Part shown: positions 1,691 through 37,114 of the stretch, one piece after another
Layout: every line of letters begins with the position of its first letter
How positions within the stretch are numbered: position 1 is the stretch's first letter
Source: Oryzisolibacter sp. LB2S
GTDB taxonomy: Bacteria > Pseudomonadota > Gammaproteobacteria > Burkholderiales > Burkholderiaceae_C
Direction: 5' to 3'
DNA length: 64,000 nucleotides
NCBI RefSeq assembly: GCF_040732315.1
Contig: NZ_CP160388.1
Location: 248,001 to 312,000 of the forward strand
Notes under the pieces: model-generated
The model's input: the letters and a program-made list of their open reading frames with translations, nothing else
The model's database searches: none
What the model was told of the DNA's origin: nothing
Position numbers and translations under genes: made by a program

Positions 1691-2937
1691 ATTCGACGAT
1701 TGCGTTCAGGCTGGCGTCGCTGGCGGCGTTTCTGTTGCCGGCGCTGGCGCTCTGGGTTCCTTCGGGCTACTCCTATGCCGCCGTGCTTCTGCTCCTCGGG
1801 GCGCTGTGTCTGGCGCCGCGCTGGTTGCGCCGGCGCCCGGAGCCGGAAGTCCTGTGGCTCGCGGCGTTGTTTGCCGGCATGGGTTGCATGTGGTTCCTGT
1901 TGTCGCTCGATCCCGGTGTAGCGCGCTGGGACAAGGGCAGCAAGTGGCTGCTGGCCTTGCCCTGCCTGTTCTTTCTTGCCGCGTATCCGCCCCGGCCGCG
2001 CGCGTTCATGGCAGGCCTGCCCATAGGCTGCCTGGGCATGGGGGCGCTCGCCGCATGGCAGACCTGGGGTCAGCACTTGCCGCGCGCGGAGGGCTTCACC
2101 AATGCCATCCAGTGGGGCAACACGGCCCTGCTGCTGGCCTGCATGACCGTGGTCTGCGTGGTCGTGTTCTGGCGTGTGCGCCCATGGCCATGGCGGTTGG
2201 GAATGGTTCTGGCGGCCCTAGCGGGGCTGGGGGGCTCGCTGTTGTCGCAGTCGCGCGGCGGATGGCTGGCGTTGCTTGTGGTGCTTCCCGTGTGGCTGCT
2301 GTGGGTGGCTAGGCTGCGCCCCCATCGGCTGCGGCACGCTTTGACCACGCTGGCCGCGCTGGCCCTCATGCTGGTCCTGGTATTGGGGCTGACGCCCAGG
2401 TTCCATGGACGCATTGCGCTGGCGGTCAGCGAGATTTCCGGCTACCTGAACACGGGACAGGGCGAGACGTCACTGGGCGTGCGATTGCAGCAGTACGAGT
2501 TGGCCGCCGACATGATTGCCCACAAGCCTTGGCTGGGGTGGGGCGCCCACGGCTTTGTGGCAGAGATGCACCGCCGCGTGGAGGCTGGAAGCTATGGTCC
2601 TGCGATGCTGGGTTACCCCGAAATCCACAACATCTTTCTCGATGCCTGGGTCAAGGTCGGCATCCTCGGGTTGCTGCTGCAGCTGGCATTGCTGGGCTAT
2701 GTGCTGTATCTGTTCTGGCCCAGCCCCGGGCGCCTGCAGCATTGGCGTGAAGACTCGGACGCATGGCGCGACGCCCTGGCCCTGCGCGCCATGGGCTGTC
2801 TGGTACCTGTGTGCTATCTGATGTTCGGCATGTCCCAGCCCTTCTTCAACCACAACAGCGGCATCATGGTGTTCGCCTTCTACACCATGGTGCTGTGGGC
2901 GGCGCTGCGCGGGCTGGAGCGGGGTGCGCGCGCATGA
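1687..2937 (+). CDS. O-antigen ligase family membrane protein (WaaL/Wzy-like)
   Basis: A 416-residue polytopic inner-membrane protein with about 10-12 hydrophobic segments and the Wzy_C/O-antigen ligase domain in the second half. Landmarks are SQSRGGWLAL before the large periplasmic loop, then LGVRLQQYELA, KPWLGWGAHGF and PEIHNIFLDAWV, which holds the conserved loop histidine. Members join undecaprenyl-linked O-polysaccharide to lipid A-core (WaaL) or polymerise repeats (Wzy); sequence alone does not decide which. The start is the ATG of an ATGA overlap with the glycosyltransferase upstream, and the stop makes the same overlap with the GT2 downstream. The three genes form a tightly coupled surface-glycan operon. 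Confidence 0.85.
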   Translation: MNSTIAFRLASLAAFLLPALALWVPSGYSYAAVLLLLGALCLAPRWLRRRPEPEVLWLAALFAGMGCMWFLLSLDPGVARWDKGSKWLLALPCLFFLAAYPPRPRAFMAGLPIGCLGMGALAAWQTWGQHLPRAEGFTNAIQWGNTALLLACMTVVCVVVFWRVRPWPWRLGMVLAALAGLGGSLLSQSRGGWLALLVVLPVWLLWVARLRPHRLRHALTTLAALALMLVLVLGLTPRFHGRIALAVSEISGYLNTGQGETSLGVRLQQYELAADMIAHKPWLGWGAHGFVAEMHRRVEAGSYGPAMLGYPEIHNIFLDAWVKVGILGLLLQLALLGYVLYLFWPSPGRLQHWREDSDAWRDALALRAMGCLVPVCYLMFGMSQPFFNHNSGIMVFAFYTMVLWAALRGLERGARA

Positions 2938-3962
2938 CCTGGCTCAGCATCCTGGTGCCGGTCTACAACGTCGAGCCCTATCTCGAGGAATGCCTGGCCT
3001 CGGTGATCGCACAGCTGCCGGCCGAGGGCGGTGTGCAGCTGCTGGTGCTCGACGACTGCTCCACCGATGGCTCCTGGGCGCTGATGCAGCGGCTTGACGC
3101 GCGCTGGCCCGGGCGCCTGCAGCTGCTGCGCCACGCGCGCAACGGCGGCCTGAGCGCGGCGCGCAACACCATGATCGATGCCGCCACGGGCGACTACCTG
3201 TGGTTTCTCGACTCCGACGACAAGCTGCTGCCCGGCGCCATCGCCGGCCTGCGTGCCATCGTGCAGGCCCATGGGCCCGATGTGGTGCTGTGCGACTTCG
3301 AGGTCTGGCGCGAGCGCATGCGGCTCAAGCACCGGCTGCGCGGCGAGCGCCACCGGCGCAGCTTCGACGGCCCGGCCGGCCGCCTGGTGCGCGATCGCGG
3401 CGCATTGCTCGCGGGCATGCTCATGACCGGCGAGCTCCATGCCTGGTCCAAGATCTCGCGCCGCGCGCTCTGGGGCGATGCCGATGCGGGCGGCCTTCGC
3501 TTTCCCGTGGGGCGCTACTTCGAGGACATGGCGACCATGCCGCTGATGGCCCTGCGCGCGGACAGTTTCTTCTACGAGCCCCGCCCCTGGGTGGCCTACC
3601 GCCAGCGCGGCAGCAGCATTCTGGCCACCATGACCGTGCCCAAGGCGCTGGACCAGTCCGCCGCGCTGCTGCCCCTGGCGCGCGCCCTGCAGGGCCGGCC
3701 CGAGCTGCAGCAGGGCGCGCTGCGCCTGGCCCTGGCGCACCAGGCCGCGCGCGCCCTGACGGGCGCCATGCGCCATGTCAGCCAACGCCGGCCCGAGGTG
3801 GGGCAGCCCCGGCCGCAGGAGCTGGCCGAACGCCTGCGCCAGGACTTTCGCGCGGCCTCGCCCCTGGCGCCCGAGGAGCTCGCGCGCGCCTATCTGCGCC
3901 GCGGCTGGTGGCTGCGCCGGCGCAAGTTTCTGCGCTGGTTCCACGCCTTGCCAGCCGCGTGA
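2934..3962 (+). CDS. Glycosyltransferase family 2 (GT-A fold)
   Basis: A 342-residue inverting glycosyltransferase. The N-terminus SILVPVYNVEPYLEECL is the standard GT2 nucleotide-binding start, followed by VLDDCSTDGSW and the FLDSDDKLLPGA metal-binding region (DXD type). The C-terminal part is Arg-rich and may sit at the membrane surface. The start is the ATG overlapping the ligase stop; an upstream in-frame extension to 2763 is rejected because it lies fully within the ligase gene. It is the last gene of the glycan operon, ending near a dispersed repeat and the converging nitronate monooxygenase. The sugar specificity is unknown. Confidence 0.87.
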   Translation: MTWLSILVPVYNVEPYLEECLASVIAQLPAEGGVQLLVLDDCSTDGSWALMQRLDARWPGRLQLLRHARNGGLSAARNTMIDAATGDYLWFLDSDDKLLPGAIAGLRAIVQAHGPDVVLCDFEVWRERMRLKHRLRGERHRRSFDGPAGRLVRDRGALLAGMLMTGELHAWSKISRRALWGDADAGGLRFPVGRYFEDMATMPLMALRADSFFYEPRPWVAYRQRGSSILATMTVPKALDQSAALLPLARALQGRPELQQGALRLALAHQAARALTGAMRHVSQRRPEVGQPRPQELAERLRQDFRAASPLAPEELARAYLRRGWWLRRRKFLRWFHALPAA

Positions 3963-34028: not shown

Positions 34029-34472
34029 ATGTCGCAACACAGGGCACAACACAGCGTCGAACAACGCGCCATCACCGCCGAAGCGGCGCTCGCCGCCGTG
34101 GCGGCGGCCGTGGCCCGAGCCGGTGAGCTGGGCATACGCGTCAATGTTGCCGTGACCGACGCCTCGGGCGTGCTCGCGGCCTTTCTGCGCATGCCCGGGG
34201 CCTTTCTGCACTCGGTGGACATCGCCATCGACAAGGCCTACACCGCGGCCGGCTTTGGCTTTGCCACCTCGCAGTGGGCCGGCATCCTGCAGGGCGACGA
34301 GGCGCTGCGCTTAGGCATGCCCCAGCGCCCGCGCAACGTCGTCTTCGGCGGCGGCCTGCCGCTGCGCGAGGGCGGGGTGCTGATTGGCGGCATCGGCGTC
34401 TCGGGCGGCAGCGCCGAGCAGGACGAGCTTTGCGCCCGCGCGGCCATTGACGCGCTGGGCCTGGACAGTTGA
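34029..34472 (+). CDS. GlcG/HbpS-family protein
   Basis: A 147-residue protein of the GlcG/HbpS (heme-degrading-like) fold family: ITAEAALAAVAAAVARAGEL, VNVAVTDASGVLAAFLRMPG, DIAIDKAYTAAGFG and GGIGVSGGSAEQDELCA are standard. Such genes recur in aromatic meta-pathway operons, where the role is not settled; a cofactor or stress function for the dioxygenase has been suggested. It follows dmpB by 9 bases. Confidence 0.85.
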   Translation: MSQHRAQHSVEQRAITAEAALAAVAAAVARAGELGIRVNVAVTDASGVLAAFLRMPGAFLHSVDIAIDKAYTAAGFGFATSQWAGILQGDEALRLGMPQRPRNVVFGGGLPLREGGVLIGGIGVSGGSAEQDELCARAAIDALGLDS

Positions 34473-34510
34473 GCCGTTCACAAATCACAAATTGCATAGA
34501 GAGACAAACC

Positions 34511-35404
34511 ATGAAGAAAACCTCCATCGCCGCTGCGGCGCTCGCCCTGTGCGGGCTGTGGGCCGCAGGCGGCGCCCAGGCCGAGGGCCACTACGTCGCC
34601 GGCGTCGAAGGCCTGCAGGCGGCCAGCGTGCCGCCACCGGGCATGTACTACCTGGGCTATCTGGTGAACTACCAGATCGACGACTTCCGCGCCCCTGGCA
34701 CCAGCAGCAACCTGCCCGGCCACAACCGCGGCACCGTCACGGCCCTGGCCAACCGCTTCGTCTGGATGACCGGGCACAAGCTGCTGGGGGCCGACTATGG
34801 CGTGGAGGCCATCGTGCCCGTGCTGCGCACCTCGCTGACCATCAACGCCGCCGGCATTTCCGACTCGCGCAGCGGCGTGGGCGACATCTACCTCGGCCCC
34901 CTGGTGCTCGGCTGGCACGGCCCGCAGTGGGACGCCGTGGCGGCCGCCGGCCTGTGGCTGGACAACGCCAGCACCAGCTCCCCAGCCTCGCCCGGCAAGG
35001 GCTTCAAGAGCACCATGCTCACGGGCGGGCTGACGTACTACTTCGACGGCGCCAAGACCATCTCCGGCGCGGCCCTGGCGCGCTATGAGTTCAACGGCAG
35101 AAACGACGCGGGCCGTCGCCCCGGCGACCAGCTGACCGTGGAGTGGAGCCTGGGCAAGTCCTTCGGCGCCGTCTCGGCCGGCCTCGTCGGCTACAGCCAG
35201 TGGCAGACCACGAACGACAGCGGCGCGGGCGCCAGCACCCACAAGTCCGCGCGCCACGCCGTGGGCGCCGAGCTGGTCTACCCCGTGCCGGGCGCGGGCC
35301 TGTTCCTCAAGGGCGCGCTGTACAAGGAGGTGAGCGCCAAGGCCGGCACCGGCCCCGAGTCCAAGGGCTCGCTGCTGCGCTTCTCGCTCGTCAAGGCGTT
35401 TTAA
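34511..35404 (+). CDS. MetA-pathway outer-membrane protein (phenol-degradation type)
   Basis: A 297-residue protein with a signal peptide (SIAAAALALCGLWAAGGAQA) and a beta-strand-rich mature part, matching the Phenol_MetA_deg/SphA outer-membrane family often found in aromatic operons. It likely helps aromatic substrate cross the outer membrane. The ATG at 34511 opens the signal peptide. The TAA stop lies inside the left end of the 169-bp palindromic element that follows (TTAAGGC), so insertion of the element may have set the present C-terminus (KAF). Confidence 0.83.
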   Translation: MKKTSIAAAALALCGLWAAGGAQAEGHYVAGVEGLQAASVPPPGMYYLGYLVNYQIDDFRAPGTSSNLPGHNRGTVTALANRFVWMTGHKLLGADYGVEAIVPVLRTSLTINAAGISDSRSGVGDIYLGPLVLGWHGPQWDAVAAAGLWLDNASTSSPASPGKGFKSTMLTGGLTYYFDGAKTISGAALARYEFNGRNDAGRRPGDQLTVEWSLGKSFGAVSAGLVGYSQWQTTNDSGAGASTHKSARHAVGAELVYPVPGAGLFLKGALYKEVSAKAGTGPESKGSLLRFSLVKAF

Positions 35405-35569
35405 GGCAACGCTGAACAAGTCCCTCGCGTGCCGCGCATCCCTGCTGTGGGCTGTCTGCTGCGTTGCAAATCCTCGCCATAGCGCTGGCTATGGCTGCGG
35501 TTTGCGCCTTGCATCCCATCCCACATCAGGGCGCGCGCCGTCGCGGTGACTTATTCAGCGTCGCCTTAA
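35401..35569. repeat. 169-bp full-length imperfect palindrome (MITE-like)
   Basis: The ends TTAAGGCAACGCTGAACAAG (35401-) and its mirror at 35548-35569 match in 20 of 22 positions, and the match continues with gaps to the centre, where CGCCATAGC meets GCTATGGC. The arms are about 83 bp each. No coding capacity. It looks like a non-autonomous mobile element, or a hairpin-forming processing element, between the hydroxylase half and the lower-pathway half of the operon. Confidence 0.85.
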
Positions 35570-35653
35570 GCCGACTGCAAGTCGTCTTCAAGTCGCCTTC
35601 AAGTCGTCCGCAGGCCGCACAGGTGTTCAACATTTCCACAGCAAAGCAATGAC

Positions 35654-37114
35654 ATGAAAGAGTTTCTCAACTTCATCAACGGCGAATATGTTCGCAACAC
35701 CAGCGGCAAGACGTTCGACAACATCAACCCCGTCAACGGCCAGGTCATCGGCCGCATACACGAGGCCGGCCAGGCCGAGGTCGATGCGGCCGTGACTGCG
35801 GCGCGCGCCGCGCTCAAGGGCGACTGGGGCCGGCTGTCGGTGGTCCAGCGCTGCAAGCTGCTGGACGCCGTGGCGCTCGAGATCAACCGGCGCTTCGACG
35901 ACTTCCTGCAGGCCGAGATTGCCGACACCGGCAAGCCCCACCACCTGGCCTCGCACGTGGACATTCCGCGCGGCGCGGCCAATTTCCAGATCTTCATCGA
36001 CACCATCAAGAGCACGGCCACCGAGTCGTTCAACATGCGCACGCCCGACGGCAAGACGGCGCTTTCCTACGGCGTGCGCGTGCCGCGCGGCGTGATTGCC
36101 GTGGTCTGCCCCTGGAACCTGCCGCTCTTGCTCATGACGTGGAAGGTCGGCCCGGCGCTGGCCTGCGGCAACACCGTGGTCGTCAAGCCCAGCGAGGAAA
36201 CCCCGGCCACGGCCACGCTGCTAGGCGAAGTCATGAACGCAGTCGGCATGCCCCGGGGGGTGTACAACGTCGTGCATGGCTTTGGCCCGGGCTCGGCGGG
36301 TGAATTCCTCACCAGGCACCCTGGTGTGAACGGCGTGACCTTCACCGGCGAAACGCGCACCGGCAGCGCCATCATGAAGGCCGCCGCCGACGGCGTGCGC
36401 CCCGTGTCGCTGGAGATGGGCGGCAAGAACGCCGCCGTGGTGTTTGCCGACTGCGACTTCCAGGTGACGATAGACACGCTCACGCGCTCGTGCTTCGAGA
36501 ACGCCGGCCAAGTCTGCCTGGGCACCGAGCGCGTCTACGTCGAGCGCCCGATCTTCGAGAAGGTGGTCGCTGCCTTGAAGGAGCGTGCAGAGGCCATGAA
36601 GCCCGGCGACCCGTTCGACAAGGACACCAAGATCGGCCCGCTGATCAGCAAGAAGCACCAGGCCAAGGTGCTGGGCCTGTACAAGACCGCCAAGGACGAG
36701 GGCGCGCAGATTGTCACCGGCGGCGGCATCCCCGACATGCCCGAGCAGCTTCAGGACGGCTCCTGGATCCAGCCCACCATCTGGACCGGCCTGCCCGAGA
36801 CCGCCACCGTGGTGACGGAAGAAATCTTCGGCCCCTGCTGCCACATCAGCCCGTTCGACAGCGAGGAGGAGGTGCTCTCCAAGGTCAACGCCAACCGCTA
36901 CGGCCTGGCCACGGCCGTCTTCACGCAGGACATCGGCCGCGCCAACCGCCTGGCGCATCAGATCGAGGTCGGCCTGTGCTGGATCAACGCCTGGTTCCTG
37001 CGCGACCTGCGTACGCCGTTCGGCGGCTCCAAGCAATCCGGCATAGGCCGCGAGGGCGGCGTGCACTCGCTGGAGTTCTACACCGAGCTGCGCAATGTGA
37101 TGGTGAAGTTTTAG
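35654..37114 (+). CDS. dmpC: 2-Hydroxymuconic semialdehyde dehydrogenase (DmpC)
   Basis: A 486-residue NAD-dependent aldehyde dehydrogenase that oxidises 2-hydroxymuconic semialdehyde to the dienoate (4-oxalocrotonate enol). Motifs are PWNLPLLLMTWKVGPALACG, VSLEMGGKNAAVVF with the general-base Glu, and ENAGQVCLG with the catalytic Cys. Length fits DmpC/XylG. It is the first gene after the palindromic element and lacks a clear Shine-Dalgarno. Confidence 0.95.
   Translation: MKEFLNFINGEYVRNTSGKTFDNINPVNGQVIGRIHEAGQAEVDAAVTAARAALKGDWGRLSVVQRCKLLDAVALEINRRFDDFLQAEIADTGKPHHLASHVDIPRGAANFQIFIDTIKSTATESFNMRTPDGKTALSYGVRVPRGVIAVVCPWNLPLLLMTWKVGPALACGNTVVVKPSEETPATATLLGEVMNAVGMPRGVYNVVHGFGPGSAGEFLTRHPGVNGVTFTGETRTGSAIMKAAADGVRPVSLEMGGKNAAVVFADCDFQVTIDTLTRSCFENAGQVCLGTERVYVERPIFEKVVAALKERAEAMKPGDPFDKDTKIGPLISKKHQAKVLGLYKTAKDEGAQIVTGGGIPDMPEQLQDGSWIQPTIWTGLPETATVVTEEIFGPCCHISPFDSEEEVLSKVNANRYGLATAVFTQDIGRANRLAHQIEVGLCWINAWFLRDLRTPFGGSKQSGIGREGGVHSLEFYTELRNVMVKF

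Follow-up and report, generated by a model that had tools for sequence, protein, structure and literature searches.

A palindromic insertion of probable IS5-group origin at a stop codon of a phenol operon in Oryzisolibacter sp. LB2S, with a hairpin core shared by elements with different ends

The region considered here lies in a stretch of 64,000 bp of Oryzisolibacter sp. LB2S, referred to below as the window. It contains a phenol operon in which a near-full-length imperfect palindrome of 169 bp (35401-35569) separates two adjacent plus-strand genes. The upstream gene (34469..35404) encodes an outer-membrane protein of the Phenol_MetA_deg family (PF13557, E 1.9e-42), and the downstream gene (35654..37114) an aldehyde dehydrogenase (PF00171, E 7.7e-152), which we take, from its context, to be a 2-hydroxymuconic semialdehyde dehydrogenase. 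On the 5' side of the palindrome are found a phenol hydroxylase, a catechol 2,3-dioxygenase-like enzyme, an HbpS-like protein and the outer-membrane protein; on its 3' side the aldehyde dehydrogenase is accompanied by an FAA-hydrolase-type enzyme and an acetaldehyde dehydrogenase. Domain matches thus bear out the location proposed in an earlier note on this DNA, between the hydroxylase/dioxygenase block and the aldehyde dehydrogenase block, and the TAA stop codon of the outer-membrane gene (35402-35404) does lie within the left end of the palindrome.

The palindrome is bounded on each side by the tetranucleotide TTAA (35401..35404 and 35566..35569), and the 161 bp in between (35405..35565, plus strand) constitute what we call a type A element. 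Its terminal inverted repeats are GGCAACGCTGAACAAGTC on the left (35405..35422, plus strand), a close match to the ends of IS5-family elements, and GGCGACGCTGAATAAGTC on the right (35548..35565, read on the minus strand). Its centre is a hairpin core (35461..35512, plus strand) which is common to palindromes with other ends, and whose two arms are asymmetric (GCAAATCCTCG versus GCAAACCGCAG). The longest stop-free run within the 161 bp is 50 codons. A pattern built on the 22-bp end, with up to 3 mismatches allowed, matches the window twice, at the two ends of the palindrome, and gives no match in shuffled sequences. The RNA of positions 35390-35580 is predicted to fold at -100.2 kcal/mol, against a mean of -70.4 for shuffled sequences (z -7.5; none of 200 shuffles as good); the predicted values are -89 (z -7.8) for the RNA of the 161-bp element alone and -51.7 (z -6.7) for the 169 bp folded as DNA. 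The end-pattern matches and the fold show that the coordinates, the ends and the near-full-length palindromy had been described correctly. Rfam covariance models gave no match at E<=1 in eight loci, including the window copy, and a reading as a curated RNA family was dropped. Next to the palindrome, about four 11-bp tandem units resembling AAGTCGTCTTC occupy positions 35568-35611, starting where the element ends on the right; two 11-bp gaps fall in this stretch in the alignment to the same-genus locus described below.

To find related loci, the outer-membrane protein was searched in 250 genomes of the family (one genome per species), of which 36 matched, the host included. One of them, G006, belongs to the same genus; there the same two genes lie side by side, the palindrome is absent and the TAA stop is intact. 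When the element and one TTAA are removed from the window, 2580 of 2929 aligned columns are identical between the two genomes (88% over 2.9 kb), and the junction reads GCGTT-CTAA-GCC in G006 versus GCGTT-TTAA-GCC in the window. The CTAA present at the empty junction indicates that the stop codon TAA belongs to the target and was not supplied by the element. An empty site in a related phenol cluster, which had been suggested as a check, therefore exists, in clean form in this single genome. At the 15 strongest other outer-membrane loci, neither type A ends (up to 3 mismatches) nor the core occur within 1.5 kb downstream of the gene; an aldehyde dehydrogenase is seen downstream in 6 of the 15. 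The palindrome is accordingly not a constant companion of this gene restricted to this place: it is missing from 15 of 15 related loci, and copies are found elsewhere (see below). Another genome of the genus, G001, has these two genes about 770 bp apart (locus L149, about 2400-3173), and the intergenic stretch holds, by eye, unrelated sequence rich in partly inverted repeats. With such unrelated repeats in the G001 gap, the spacer between the outer-membrane and aldehyde dehydrogenase genes seems to tolerate insertions.

The earlier note had proposed to look for the 22-bp ends in the genome and in relatives, and they do recur. The end pattern is present in 73 stretches of genome_contigs, mostly in records named as Burkholderiales, and in 28 of these 73 loci a second end delimits a span of 164-179 bp. 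The exact end pattern has no match in viral_contigs. Two-ended elements were identified in 16 of the 250 family genomes, the host included, with none for the control pattern written backwards. They amount to 68 copies, G156 contributing 31 and G152 contributing 11; in the host genome the window copy is the sole full copy found. Flanks were read for 48 distinct copies out of the 68 counted (the first places in each genome); one copy, L227, was unmatched owing to masked bases, and four fetched stretches duplicate others. When the pattern places no condition on the flanks, the 4 bp on either side are identical in 22 of the 48 copies and differ in 26. The identical flanks are distributed as follows: TTAG in 8 cases, TTAA in 3, CTAA in 3, CTAG in 2, and six other tetranucleotides once each, so that 16 of the 22 conform to YTAR, which is the IS5 motif (PMC10359306). 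From these identical 4-bp flanks we infer that the element proper is 161 bp long (35405-35565). The outermost TTAA had been taken as part of the palindrome; the ends stand, and TTAA itself is better read as a duplicated target whose sequence is by chance its own reverse complement. For this reason the window copy, taken alone, does not tell whether the four bases are directly duplicated or form an inverted repeat.

The ends of type A elements are also carried by IS5-type sequences. At five loci (L043, L044, L049, L065 and L105, among which are Rhodoferax and Xylophilus contigs) an exact MITE end continues, by eye, into an IS5-type reading frame, which in L065 matches DUF772. Complete IS5-family elements were found whose ends differ from the MITE pattern by 1-2 substitutions in 16 (L127-L129 and L309-L312). 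Three of them lie on plasmids: L129, in Hydrogenophaga, is flanked by CTAA/CTAA, and the two from Acidovorax carolinensis by TTAA/TTAA (L127) and by the unequal pair CTAA/TTAA (L128). The flanks of the others are TTAA/TTAA (L309), CTAA/CTAA (L311), CTAG/CTAG (L312) and the unequal TTAG/CTAC (L310). The transposases of L127 and L129 match DDE_Tnp_1 and DUF772, and L309-L312 are 77-86% identical to L129. A transposase with matching ends is present in the MITE-bearing genomes G018, G030, G048 and G241; in total, a transposase match at E<=1e-40 is seen in only 5 of the 16 MITE-bearing genomes, that of G152 being in fragments. In G030 (L309 turned, 1431-1466), a full IS5-type element abuts a second matching end, with one TTAA in common. 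In the host genome, a transposase search gave no match to a 100-aa query and none at E<=1e-40 to a 320-aa query, and around none of the 14 DDE_Tnp_1 places could matching ends be paired convincingly within about 1.5 kb. An autonomous copy in the host is thus not supported, as no transposase with matching ends was found.

Taken together, sequence comparisons point very strongly to the palindrome being a 161-bp MITE of the IS5 group, built around a shared core, that would have been moved in trans into a TTAA site with preservation of the TAA stop codon. The possibility raised earlier of a non-autonomous element is supported by the recurring ends, the empty site and the matching group of autonomous IS. 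The mechanism may be pictured as follows. An IS5-type (DDE) transposase acting in trans would have recognized the ends of about 18 bp, as the matching ends of complete elements suggest. The comparisons themselves show the insertion into a TTAA (YTAR) target and the duplication of 4 bp. The outer-membrane gene was left intact because the target overlapped its TAA stop, and the spacer ahead of the lower-pathway genes grew by 165 bp, a change that is directly visible. A transposase supplied in the same genome is usual for a MITE and is unnecessary for a stranded copy; since the host has no transposase with matching ends, the window copy is presumably stranded, or was acquired by transfer or together with an IS since lost. 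If the operon mRNA reads through, it would carry a fold-back hairpin of 161 nt just past the stop codon, which could be cut by RNase III or could shield the upstream mRNA end; we see no sign of selection for such an effect.

A quite different explanation is that the palindrome is a selected RNA device, either an RNase III processing site, a stabilizer or a partial terminator, setting the balance between upper- and lower-pathway enzymes. Such a role would suit a hairpin of high stability that directly follows a stop codon and lies between two operon blocks, and the comparable neisserial CREE is reported to be bound and cleaved by RNase III when present in mRNA (PMC2649163). We nevertheless consider this explanation improbable, given the absence from the 15 strongest other loci, the presence of the same element at other sites in other genomes and the following results. 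In 19 of 41 type A copies, an open frame 100 codons or longer has its stop codon in the 4-bp flank (13 of the 26 copies that came from a scan requiring TTAA at one end, and 6 of the remaining 15). Control YTAR sites in the same loci have such a stop in 273 of 1403 cases per strand, from which about 35% would be expected for a two-sided element, the sides being taken as independent. Since TAA or TAG is part of YTAR, the observed overlap with stop codons is close to what is expected, and this property of the IS5 target also accounts for the fact that such palindromes can overlap stop codons at all. The orientation of type A copies relative to the open frames ending at them is unbiased (10 co-oriented, 9 opposed; 2 of the 41 copies could not be oriented). 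Finally, no intrinsic-terminator-like site (GC-rich stem followed by a U-tract) was found on either strand in 35300-35700, nor any sigma-70-type promoter in the same interval. The processing site or partial terminator suggested in the earlier note thus finds no positive support, and the idea of a site-specific regulatory device was set aside as unsupported. Cleavage by RNase III of so long a predicted hairpin is plausible, and the insertion may affect regulation incidentally; a role in regulation that was selected for finds no support. With the palindrome explained as a lineage-specific insertion, the phenol operon would lose a candidate regulatory element.

The arms of type A elements change together. 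In 40 distinct copies, 90.8% of the cells are paired, and 21 pairs have changed on both sides, in 120 cells. The corresponding means in shuffles are 86.1%, 12.2 pairs and 44.2 cells, and the maxima in slid controls 47.2%, 11 pairs and 29 cells. These counts leave aside 7 of the 48 copies, six that are not 161 bp long and L222, which is 161 bp long with offsetting indels; the structure used in the test has an advantage over its slid versions, having been computed from the window copy, and related copies inflate the numbers of cells. Such co-variation would be explained by selection on the hairpin as well as by arm-to-arm copying. Template switching in a quasi-palindrome can copy one arm onto the other, and would so produce co-variation. 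It is possible, if on balance doubtful, that the full-length hairpin is itself selected in the family, for instance because single-stranded DNA folds during movement or because the hairpin mutes effects on host genes. The excess of cells changed on both sides over the shuffled mean argues in this direction, as does the same asymmetry of the core arms, kept across several end groups; this lasting asymmetry is, we infer, somewhat against arm copying alone. Against selection are the equal ability of template switching to make arms co-vary, the inflation of the counts by related copies, the folding of the structure from one of the tested sequences, and the number of further pair types, 41 versus 37.7 in shuffles, a value reached in 35 of 500 shuffles.

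The core common to elements with different ends is the more unusual aspect of the palindrome. Elsewhere in the host genome, seven further loci match over positions 63-118 of the query alone, and all are palindromes with other ends. Core matches are present in all 7 genomes of the genus, 120 in total; 77 of these 120 were used in the survey, 5 of which scored too low, and 70 distinct loci were kept. They are distributed by end group as follows: B 21, C 5, D1 22, D2 4, D3 4, F 5 and unassigned 9. A comparison of type A (41 copies, mostly from other genera) with B, C and D1-D3 gives 88-91% identity for the core and 21-34% for the outer arms. Outer-arm identity is 57-58% among the D subtypes and 37-43% between C and D, so that a relationship between these groups is possible. 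Type F has, by eye, the same core base with a different tip (52-57% by ungapped count). Within one bacterial family the full core is therefore found in four end groups and its base only in a fifth. The flanks also depend on the group: of 30 C/D copies whose ends could be read, 22 have CTAG on each side, and of 24 B-like copies, 19 have TGA on each side. A search of 398 genomes sampled across the phylum with a strict core pattern gave 5 carriers, all from the family of the host (5 of the 12 sampled there); weaker core matches occur on four plasmid records, from Mitsuaria, Comamonas, Cupriavidus and Martelella.

When the B-like elements (L003-L008 in the host; L028, L033, L034, L040 and L284-L300 in the genus) are oriented by their core, the left side reads TGA or TAA in 23 of 24 copies, and the right side TGA in 23 of 24. 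All six host copies tested abut the stop codon of an open frame of the same orientation, 266-480 codons long; for four copies tested in other genomes the open frames are of 481, 98, 42 and 1 codons. The B-like elements may insert in a stop-codon-directed manner and in fixed orientation. As for the core, we tentatively envisage, with less than even confidence, that this asymmetric sequence of about 50 bp is a portable module, repeatedly mounted between different transposon ends, borrowing any available transposase and serving a function in its own right when folded as DNA or RNA. With the shared core, the possibility that miniature transposons exchange modules can be tested on a concrete case, and hairpins with the same core and different ends form a natural series for asking what the core does.

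Among the titles and abstract openings of the literature matches listed, no publication could be recognized as describing the element or its core, and we compared it with known repeats of related bacteria. The beta-proteobacterial repeat element (BRE) is reported in Bordetella, Polaromonas, Delftia and Acidovorax (PMC3110155). Like type A, it is a dispersed repeat of Comamonadaceae and relatives, and it is mostly intergenic. Membership of the palindrome in BRE is nonetheless very unlikely: the Bordetella copies are described in the same source as 75-91 bp long and often in tandem, versus 161 bp with terminal inverted repeats here, a comparison made by description only. The neisserial CREE/NEMIS, as described in PMC2649163 and PMC2229807, are also short, dispersed and MITE-like, with inverted-repeat ends, a directional conserved core and a long hairpin in transcripts. 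They belong to another host group and have 24-bp ends with TA termini, versus 18-bp ends and YTAR for type A; the two are likened by description and not by sequence, and the interactions with RNase III and IHF are those of CREE, the type A hairpin being a prediction. The remaining comparison is with the IS5 group and its derived MITEs, with which type A shares terminal repeats and a 4-bp YTAR duplication, near-identical ends being carried by complete IS5-type elements. Unlike the IS, type A measures 161 bp, too short for a transposase, and is palindromic over nearly its whole length; the resemblance is limited, by eye, to the outer 20-25 bp or so, and the inner core of type A also occurs in elements of other end groups.
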